Below are positions 50,019-52,753 of a stretch of DNA of 59,507 nucleotides, one piece after another. The notes under the pieces were generated by a model. It searched no databases, was not told where the DNA came from, and was given only the letters and a program-made list of their open reading frames with translations. A program made the translations under genes and the position numbers. Source of the stretch: a candidate division BRC1 bacterium HGW-BRC1-1 (GTDB taxonomy: Bacteria; Sumerlaeota; Sumerlaeia; Sumerlaeales; Sumerlaeaceae); the NCBI GenBank assembly GCA_002842095.1, contig PHCB01000021.1, positions 1-59,507 of the forward strand. The letters run 5' to 3'. The stretch's first letter is position 1; each line of letters opens with the position of its first letter.

Positions 50019-51143
50019 ATGACCTCTGAATCTTTTTCCGACTCTTCATCCTCTGGCGCGGTGCATGTGGCGCTGGGGGATCGCAGTTACGACATCCAAT
50101 TTTTCAATGACGACCTTGACGGCGTGGCCCGGGCCATTCGCCCCCACGCTCCCGAGCGGGCCTTCGTCGTGTCGAACGATACCATCTGGAAGCTACACGG
50201 AGAACGCTTCGCTGCGGCCCTGCGTGCGGCCGACATCGATTTCGAACTGGGCATGATGCCCGATGGTGAACGCTACAAAACCCTCGCCACCACTTCGACC
50301 ATGCTTGACCGTATGGTGGAGAGTCGCTTCGCCCGCAAGAGCTGCGTTATCGCGTTTGGTGGCGGCGTGGTGGGAGATCTCGCCGGCTTCACCGCCGCCA
50401 CATTTCTGCGCGGCGTATCCTTCGTTCAGGTGCCCACCACCGTGGTGGCCATGGTAGACAGTTCCGTGGGTGGCAAAACCGGTGTGGATCATCCGCTGGG
50501 CAAAAATCTCATCGGCGCGTTTTACCAGCCAAAGCTGGTCGCCGTCGATTCATCGCTGCTGCATACGCTGGATCTTCACAACGTGCAGGGCGGGTTCGCC
50601 GAGGTTATCAAGTACGGTGTTATCCGCGACGCCGATTTCTTCGCCTATCTGGAGGAGAACCTTGAGCGGGCGATGGCCCTCGAAACCGAACCTCTTCACC
50701 ATGTGATTCGTCGGTCCTGCGAGTTAAAGGCCGAGGTGGTGAGCGAGGACGAGTTGGAGGGGGGCGTGCGCGCCATTCTGAATTATGGTCACACGTTCGG
50801 CCACGCCATCGAAAATGTGGGCGAGTACGGCGAAAAACAATTTCACGGACAGGCCGTGGCCATCGGCATGATCGCCGCCGCGCGCGTAGGCGAAGAATTG
50901 GGATTGTTTCCCGCAGAAGCGACCCTGCGCATTCGCAAGTTGACCGAGCGCGCCGGACTGCCCTCGCGGATTCCAGCGGGCATGAAGGCCGAGACGCTTA
51001 TGGATCGCATGGCGGGAGATAAAAAGGTGGCAGCGGGCCGTGTGCGTTTCGTAATCCCTGAGGCCATCGGGCGTGTGCGCGTGACGCCGGATGTTCCCCG
51101 CGAGGTGATCGCGAGCGTGTTGAAGGAATTGGGCGCAGAATAA
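50019..51143 (+). CDS. aroB: 3-dehydroquinate synthase
   Basis: A 374-residue AroB, second step of the shikimate pathway. It has MPDGERYKTL, AFGGGVVGDLAGFTAATFLRG, VPTTVVAMVDSSVGGKTGVDHP and NYGHTFGHAIE with metal-binding His. The N-terminus carries a short Ser/Asp-rich extension. No other aro genes adjoin it. Confidence 0.97.
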   Translation: MTSESFSDSSSSGAVHVALGDRSYDIQFFNDDLDGVARAIRPHAPERAFVVSNDTIWKLHGERFAAALRAADIDFELGMMPDGERYKTLATTSTMLDRMVESRFARKSCVIAFGGGVVGDLAGFTAATFLRGVSFVQVPTTVVAMVDSSVGGKTGVDHPLGKNLIGAFYQPKLVAVDSSLLHTLDLHNVQGGFAEVIKYGVIRDADFFAYLEENLERAMALETEPLHHVIRRSCELKAEVVSEDELEGGVRAILNYGHTFGHAIENVGEYGEKQFHGQAVAIGMIAAARVGEELGLFPAEATLRIRKLTERAGLPSRIPAGMKAETLMDRMAGDKKVAAGRVRFVIPEAIGRVRVTPDVPREVIASVLKELGAE

Positions 51144-51304
51144 CCCGAGAAAGCGTTGTCAAAAGCCATGCATTTCCCTGTCATAGTCGCAACTTGGGCT
51201 TGACACGCATTGGTTCTCATGAAGAAAGTGGGGTTCTTCATGGGATGAGGAACGCTTTTACTACTCGTGCCCATTGAGACATTATTGAGGATGGAGGAAT
51301 CACC

Positions 51305-51499
51305 ATGAAGCTTATGCCCGTCGTTATGGCGGCCGTTGCGGCTATGGCCCTGTCGGCCTGCTGCTATCGTCCCTGCCCGCGTCCGTGCGCGCCTGCTCCG
51401 AGCTATTGCGCTCCCTGCGGCGTTGCCCCCGTTGCCCCTGTTGCCGTTAAAGGCCAGATGGTTAAGGGATATTATGCTGAGCCCGCAATCGAGAAGTAA
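51305..51499 (+). CDS. Small Cys-rich lipoprotein, copy 1
   Basis: A 64-residue exported lipoprotein. A short signal with lipobox LSAC gives lipidated Cys19, with Cys20 next to it. The mature part is about 46 residues with Pro-flanked cysteines 24, 28, 35 and 38, then a hydrophobic V/A/P stretch and a C-terminal PAIEK. It shows the same plan as the next gene. GGAGG is upstream. Metal or heme handling at the membrane is possible but unproven. Confidence 0.75.
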   Translation: MKLMPVVMAAVAAMALSACCYRPCPRPCAPAPSYCAPCGVAPVAPVAVKGQMVKGYYAEPAIEK

Positions 51500-51536
51500 C
51501 TCTCTCGAAGCTGCGGTATCCGCTTAAAAAAACAAT

Positions 51537-51571
51537 CCCCGGACGGGCGCAAGCCCACCGGGGTATTTTTT
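51537..51571 (+). terminator. Rho-independent terminator after lipoprotein 1
   Basis: CCCCGG/CCGGGG outer stem with an inner GGGC/GCCC stem and a T-run (51566-51571). About 40 bases after the stop of the first lipoprotein. Confidence 0.9.
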
Positions 51572-51678
51572 CGCATGGTACGTGCAGATTTCTGTTGCGT
51601 AGCGCTTCGACAACAAGCCTGCTCGTATTGTTCCAGAAGGAATAAAGTTTTACCTAAATAGGTTAGGAGGATTTTTCA

Positions 51679-51870
51679 ATGAAGGCTCTGTATATCGGTA
51701 TCGCCGTTCTGGCGAGCTTTGCATTTGTAGGCTGCTGCAATCTCAAGGCGCGTACGTCGCCGGCGATTCCCTGCATGGTGAATCCCTGCCCCACGTCTTG
51801 CAAGCCCTGCCCCCCGGTGAAGGGCAAGGTCGCTGTTGCTCGTCCTGCCATGGAGCAGATCGAGAAGTAA
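51679..51870 (+). CDS. Small Cys-rich lipoprotein, copy 2
   Basis: A 63-residue paralogue of the upstream lipoprotein. Lipobox FVGC with Cys19/Cys20 at the same positions; cysteines 32, 37, 41 and 44 in the Pro-rich mature part, and a C-terminus PAMEQIEK. AGGAGG sits 8 bases before the ATG. It has its own terminator. Sequence identity outside the cysteine pattern and tail is low, so the pair is either an old duplication or shares a fold. Confidence 0.75.
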   Translation: MKALYIGIAVLASFAFVGCCNLKARTSPAIPCMVNPCPTSCKPCPPVKGKVAVARPAMEQIEK

Positions 51871-51893: not shown

Positions 51894-51929
51894 GACCCTC
51901 CGCGCTTTTGCGGGGGGTCATTTTTTTTT
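51894..51929 (+). terminator. Rho-independent terminator after lipoprotein 2
   Basis: A 10-bp stem GACCCTCCGC/GCGGGGGGTC (one G-T pair) with a 6-base loop, followed by nine T. A strong terminator. Confidence 0.92.
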
Positions 51930-51985: not shown

Positions 51986-52753
51986 ATGAACCCATGCATG
52001 ACCACGCCTCCTGATGATTCCCTCGAACCCGAGCAATCGGTTGGCGGGTCTGTGGCTGCGCGCACGTCTGCATTGGGACGCGCACTCACCGCGTTGACAA
52101 AGACGCGCGTGAGCCTTCGCATCAACCACAACACGCATACACTGGCCACGGTGTCGCCCCCCAAACGCGCGGGTGAGCCGTGGAAGTTCAACCTCCATGC
52201 GATGTTTCTCGATGCCGACGAAATCGTTCTGCAGGCGTTGGTGGCGTGGGGGAAAAACGACGACGCTGCGGGCCGGGCCGTGCGCAAATATATCGACGCC
52301 CACATGCACGCTGTGCGCCCCAAGAAGTCCCGCATGGCGGGTGTGGTGTTGAGTCCGCGCGGAAACACCCATGACTTGCACGCTCTCATGCAGAGCGTGA
52401 ATGAGGAATTCTTTGGTGGTGGCCGCAGCGTGTACATCACCTGGGGGCAGGACGGTCGCCGCGCCACGCCCGCCCGTCGCAGCCGCACCCGCCAAATTCG
52501 TTTCGGCAGTTATGACGAGCACGCGAAGGTCATCCGCATCCACCCCGCTCTCGATCGCCCCGAGGTACCCGAGTTCTTCATCCGGTTCGTGATCTACCAC
52601 GAGATGCTGCACGATCTGCTCGACCTGGAGACAAACGAAGCCACCGGACGCCGCCGCATTCACCCTCCCGAGTTTCGCGAGATGGAACGCCTTTTCCCGC
52701 AGTATCACGAGGCCATCGCGTTCGAGCATCGCTTCCTGAAGGAATTTATGTAG
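51986..52753 (+). CDS. SprT-like/M48-type zinc metalloprotease
   Basis: A 255-residue protein. The zinc motif HEMLH (His205, Glu206, His209) is near the C-terminus and is followed by an RRRIHPPEF segment with a further His, as in YgjP/SprT-like proteins. The N-terminal half has a conserved-looking basic region but no recognised domain. It may act on protein damage or DNA-protein complexes. It may also start at the ATG four codons later. The 115 bases from the previous gene contain the lipoprotein terminator. Confidence 0.78.
   Translation: MNPCMTTPPDDSLEPEQSVGGSVAARTSALGRALTALTKTRVSLRINHNTHTLATVSPPKRAGEPWKFNLHAMFLDADEIVLQALVAWGKNDDAAGRAVRKYIDAHMHAVRPKKSRMAGVVLSPRGNTHDLHALMQSVNEEFFGGGRSVYITWGQDGRRATPARRSRTRQIRFGSYDEHAKVIRIHPALDRPEVPEFFIRFVIYHEMLHDLLDLETNEATGRRRIHPPEFREMERLFPQYHEAIAFEHRFLKEFM

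Follow-up and report, generated by a model that had tools for sequence, protein, structure and literature searches.

A tandem pair of tiny Sumerlaeaceae lipoproteins with fixed ends and a variable linker: possible tethers between outer membrane and cell wall

We report that a 59,507 nucleotide stretch of DNA from an uncultured member of Sumerlaeaceae, referred to here in its whole length as the window, carries two tandem genes for tiny lipoproteins, A and B, that may link outer membrane and cell wall. Our tentative proposal, to which we give close to an even chance, is that A and B, abundant lipoproteins of the outer membrane that arose by duplication, work like Braun's lipoprotein (Lpp). We consider such a tether more likely than the metal-binding or redox-sensing role put forward in a preliminary description of the locus. 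The tether reading is favoured because nothing but the lipid Cys, a single Pro and the Glu-Lys end stays invariant, the linker differing in both length and composition; because codon bias that equals or exceeds that of the highest-scoring ribosomal proteins, the strong, conserved ribosome-binding site of B and a terminator for each gene mark the pair; because a compact protein of the L,D-transpeptidase (YkuD) fold occurs in exactly the pair-bearing genomes; because the family has few OmpA-domain proteins; and because in Dickeya a single C-terminal Lys suffices for linkage within a box that tolerates substitutions.

Two probably paralogous and probably abundant lipoproteins

The pair is encoded on the + strand between aroB and a SprT-like gene (Table 1). 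The open reading frames bear out the first description of two tandem tiny lipoproteins of 63-64 aa with Cys19-Cys20, four further Cys and an -EK tail. In the window genome, mature A (46 aa) starts with CCYRPCPRPCAPAPSYCAP and ends in AIEK, and mature B (45 aa) starts with CCNLKARTSP and ends in QIEK, so that IEK forms the last residues of both. Cys occupies positions 19, 20, 24, 28, 35 and 38 of A and positions 19, 20, 32, 37, 41 and 44 of B, and the mature chains hold nine and eight Pro, respectively.

Table 1. Features of the lipoprotein locus and related genes (window positions unless a locus is named)
Feature	Position	Strand	Remarks
aroB	50019-51143		Flanks the pair on the A side; precedes it in 1/6 other genomes
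Lipoprotein A gene	51305..51499	+	64 aa, lipobox LSAC; homologues in six other Sumerlaeaceae genomes
C-terminal Glu-Lys codons of A	51491..51496	+	GAG AAG, or GAA AAA in G001 and G007
Terminator-like hairpin and T run after A	51537..51570	+	-20.7 kcal/mol, z -3.5
Ribosome-binding segment of B, GGTTAGGAGGA	51662..51672	+	Identical in 7/7 genomes (A-B intergenic alignment)
Lipoprotein B gene	51679..51870	+	63 aa, lipobox FVGC; homologues in the same six genomes, directly downstream of A
C-terminal Glu-Lys codons of B	51862..51867	+	Glu-Lys invariant in 7/7
Intrinsic terminator after B	51894..51928	+	Hairpin 51894-51919, -21.5 kcal/mol, z -4.4, then T run
SprT-like protein gene	51986..52753	+	Downstream neighbour in 5/6 other genomes; synteny marker, no functional link claimed
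Sumerlaeaceae TPR-LysM-YkuD gene without catalytic Cys	L084 1545-2795 (G000 C5)		Also L089, L091, L096 and L099

Each gene is followed by its own hairpin and T run, as had been noted. The hairpin after A was absent from the pattern-scan list of terminators and was seen by folding energy, and downstream of B 7/7 genomes have a G-run and then a T-rich run. The sequence upstream of A was not conserved in an alignment of the relatives, and we therefore claim no promoter; a scan for sigma-70-like sites found none. A further hairpin lies upstream of A at 51215-51270 (-17 kcal/mol, z -2.5).

A genome search recovered the ordered A-B pair in six other Sumerlaeaceae genomes, giving seven pair-bearing genomes (G000, G001, G002, G003, G004, G005 and G007). 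The pair was not found in the 33 other Sumerlaeota genomes searched, which comprise 32 of other families and G006, a Sumerlaeaceae member whose genome is only 66% complete. A and B are real genes: besides the recurrence of the ordered pair, close relatives differ mainly at third codon positions, the differences between G001 and G007 at positions 1/2/3 being 11/7/39 for A and 2/0/15 for B. The two are probably paralogues, since profile-profile comparison of their families gave a probability of 96% over 53 columns, a score to which the shared signal peptide contributes. The earlier remark that A and B have little else in common beyond their Cys plan and tail was, thus, slightly understated.

Neither protein matched Pfam at E values up to 10 or PHROGs, and no NCBIfam match exceeded the cut-off, in agreement with the failure to recognize a known family in the preliminary description. 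The sole profile to score B was the PG1828 family lipoprotein (NF050142), at 15.8 bits over residues 1-25, well short of the curated cut-off (50) and confined to the signal peptide region. A plasmid search gave no match. When a contig database was scanned, the single B protein found nothing and the A alignment matched two Sumerlaeaceae contigs; a 12-residue Sphingomonadaceae match to the A alignment was treated as chance. Weak genome matches in G000 C8, G000 C33, G006 C10 and G014 C195 were rejected, as none was an A or B orthologue with a Glu-Lys end. The locus at G000 C33:38410 (L066 1501-1713) encodes a different tiny Cys-rich lipoprotein of 70 aa, whose lipobox carries GCCTSVPTC and whose last residues are SYL rather than Glu-Lys.

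The reference set for codon bias comprised 20 genes from the ribosomal-protein/EF-Tu region of the window genome, with 38 window genes as background. A scored 0.131 and B 0.108, compared with -0.020 to 0.098 for the ribosomal genes (leave-one-out) and a maximum of 0.021 among the 38 other window genes. Of 20,000 synonymous sequences simulated under background usage, one scored as high as A and none as high as B. It is likely that A and B are highly expressed, because this ribosomal-like bias, read from the codons of two genes of ~60 codons, accompanies a ribosome-binding segment of B that is identical in seven genomes.

Conserved ends and variable cysteines

In a joint alignment of the 14 A and B proteins, invariance was limited to the lipid Cys, a single Pro column and Glu-Lys at the C-terminus. 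The lipobox Cys, and with it predicted lipidation, was present in 14/14 proteins, as was the Glu-Lys end. Among the other window genes, the products of 3/38 end in Lys and of 1/38 in Glu-Lys. The Glu-Lys codons vary synonymously, as GAG AAG or GAA AAA, and therefore the constraint acts on the protein. Mature chain length ranges from 39 to 46 residues in A and from 27 to 45 in B (27-46 over all 14). That both proteins hold the lipid Cys and the Glu-Lys end invariant suggests that it is the ends that carry the function, and fixed ends with an elastic middle are what one expects of a tether.

The shared six-Cys plan is a trait of the window genome and not of the family, because the non-lipid Cys of B range from one to five in number and the Cys positions of A change. 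In B, five non-lipid Cys were counted in G000 and G005, four in G002 and G003, and one in G001, G004 and G007; in G001 and G007 the mature chain is only 27 residues long. In A, C24 is replaced by Thr and C35 by Val in G001, G004 and G007. It should be noted that the Cys content of the two proteins goes together, being low in both in G001, G004 and G007 and high in both in G000, G002, G003 and G005, and a small tree built from SprT fits the view that this state follows phylogeny.

These counts bear on the suggestion that A and B bind metal or sense redox state through their non-lipid Cys, a role that we regard as improbable. In its favour, A keeps four to seven non-lipid Cys in all seven genomes, with Cys20 and Cys28 invariant besides the lipid Cys. 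However, B retains a single non-lipid Cys in three genomes with its ends still fixed, Cys positions shift in both proteins, and no known Cys-motif family was matched. Conserved Cys positions, the mark of a Cys-based metal or redox lipoprotein, were not found in B and in A are limited to Cys20 and Cys28. The preliminary description had named homologues without Cys conservation as evidence against its own proposal; this is what the B orthologues display, and the A orthologues in part, so the proposal is weakened for B and retains some ground in A.

The structure model of A contains one helix (residues 4-21), and the remainder has a pLDDT of about 40-50. Mature A is, thus, predicted to be disordered, and may form a flexible, extended linker. 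The segment CCYRPxPxPCxP..APSY of A, which adjoins the lipid, is strongly conserved.

Two tandem tiny lipoprotein genes with separate terminators are also the layout of ecnAB, which encodes the entericidins EcnA and EcnB. The same layout in A and B could indicate a toxin/antidote pair of this kind, but we consider this very improbable. No Pfam entericidin profile matched at E values up to 10, and the Pro-rich chain is predicted to be disordered rather than an amphipathic helix. Moreover, both copies are always present with ribosomal-like codon bias, which fits a structural protein better than a toxin.

Cell envelope and L,D-transpeptidases of Sumerlaeaceae

Omp85 and LolA were found in 8/8 Sumerlaeaceae genomes, and therefore diderm cells with a lipoprotein transport route are to be expected; the Sumerlaeota paper PMC8092238 mentions neither an outer membrane nor lipoproteins. 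The genomes encode three to four YkuD domains each where the pair is present, two in G006 and zero to two elsewhere. A compact YkuD family with a catalytic Cys in an SHGC-like motif, to which the protein of G000 C3 belongs, was present in 7/7 pair-bearing genomes and 0/33 others, G006 (66% complete) lacking both the pair and the compact YkuD. The model of the compact protein has the L,D-transpeptidase fold (mean pLDDT 85), and its best PDB matches are L,D-transpeptidases. Short YkuD matches in G009 and G011 were rejected as members of the compact type, being LysM-YkuD-type genes cut by contig ends.

Proteins with an OmpA domain are the usual non-covalent tethers, and they number zero to two per genome in Sumerlaeaceae and two to nine in the other genomes. 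MotB also bears an OmpA domain and is absent from Sumerlaeaceae. Its absence does not explain the low count, because MotB-free genomes of other families still have two to six OmpA-domain proteins. The differences in the pair, the compact YkuD and the OmpA count sit on one branch and, thus, amount to one observation for statistics; their co-occurrence may be a single historical coincidence. In G005 (94% complete) no OmpA-domain protein was found, and this genome may be without even Pal.

A second YkuD protein, with TPR and LysM domains, keeps its catalytic Cys, within SxGCxG, in 11 genomes from outside Sumerlaeaceae. The Cys is lost in the five genomes of Sumerlaeaceae that were read, the corresponding motifs being NGTIGM, VGWIMM, RGTIAL, RGSVGM and VGWITM, which suggests that the protein is a pseudo-enzyme in this family.

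A possible covalent tether and its relation to known systems

In the mechanism that we propose, the lipid Cys of A and B would anchor in the outer membrane, a sorting suggested by the lack of Asp at position +2 and by the presence of LolA and Omp85. The flexible, Pro-rich linker of 27-46 residues, computed to span some 8-14 nm as an extended polyproline II chain, would cross the space to the cell wall. There, an L,D-transpeptidase, plausibly the compact YkuD confined to the same genomes, would bond the epsilon-amine of the invariant C-terminal Lys to a stem peptide of the peptidoglycan. We speculate that, in some species, disulfides between non-lipid Cys may link adjacent tethers to one another. 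The most elaborate version of this proposal, in which Sumerlaeaceae evolved a covalent tether of their own, unrelated to Lpp and served by a family-specific compact L,D-transpeptidase, that replaced most OmpA-type tethers and is disulfide-cross-linked in Cys-rich species, strikes us as unlikely when taken as a whole.

The closest named system is Lpp of Enterobacterales with its transpeptidases LdtA/B/C (ErfK, YbiS, YcfS). Like Lpp, A and B are tiny and predicted to be highly expressed, with a lipid Cys at one end and Lys at the other, and like the hosts of Lpp the pair-bearing genomes encode L,D-transpeptidases. A and B are not members of the Lpp family, because they have neither a match to the Pfam LPP profile nor a heptad coiled coil. 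They also differ in being rich in Pro and Cys, predicted to be disordered, with a penultimate Glu and from a different phylum, and the linkage itself would be a matter of analogy; they may nevertheless work like Lpp.

The importance of the C-terminal Lys has a precedent in OutB of Dickeya dadantii, whose Lys box is joined to peptidoglycan: a single C-terminal Lys in the Lpp box is both required and enough, and substitutions in the box are tolerated (PMC12274547). In contrast to A and B, OutB is an inner-membrane protein with a folded domain and the box VRTTKK. Against a tether, A and B end in Glu-Lys where known boxes have Arg-Lys or Lys-Lys, and Lys is the last residue of >20% of the periplasmic proteins and lipoproteins of Escherichia coli (PMC12274547). 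Also against it, HP0135 of Helicobacter pylori has a conserved C-terminal Lys and was not found on the sacculus (PMC11768039).

HP0135 is the precedent for another explanation, that A and B are generic abundant outer-membrane lipoproteins acting non-covalently, for example in membrane stabilization or in support of an assembly machine, and that their Glu-Lys end docks on a periplasmic partner. We judge this to be possible, if rather unlikely. Like A and B, HP0135 is tiny (a 28-residue mature outer-membrane lipoprotein) with a conserved C-terminal Lys and a disordered tail, and it is required for membrane stability without being linked to the sacculus (PMC11768039); the conserved lipid-proximal segment of A could likewise bind a partner. 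However, H. pylori lacks ErfK/YcfS/YbiS (PMC11768039), whereas pair-bearing Sumerlaeaceae encode three to four YkuD proteins. Non-covalent action also leaves unexplained why divergent paralogues share only the lipid Cys and terminal Glu-Lys, and why an extra L,D-transpeptidase and a low count of OmpA tethers occur in parallel.

The Lpp tether is described as confined to a subclade of Pseudomonadota in PMC10260701, which cites Witwinowski 2022. If the covalent tether proposed for A and B is confirmed, an unrelated, disordered tether in Sumerlaeota would mean that covalent tethering had more than one origin and can do without a coiled coil, given two fixed ends joined by a linker. It would also supply a search rule for other phyla, namely a tiny abundant lipoprotein with a variable linker, an invariant C-terminal Lys and a matching transpeptidase. 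The A/B pair is testable in E. coli.

The nearest published idea outside Proteobacteria that we found concerns WP_009060351 of Methylacidiphilum fumariolicum, an abundant lipoprotein proposed as an Lpp analogue (PMC10260701). Compared by description, it shares with A and B a conserved lipid Cys and a C-terminal Lys, and differs in its length of 139 aa, in its 53-residue conserved C-terminal domain and in having been detected in the peptidoglycan fraction.
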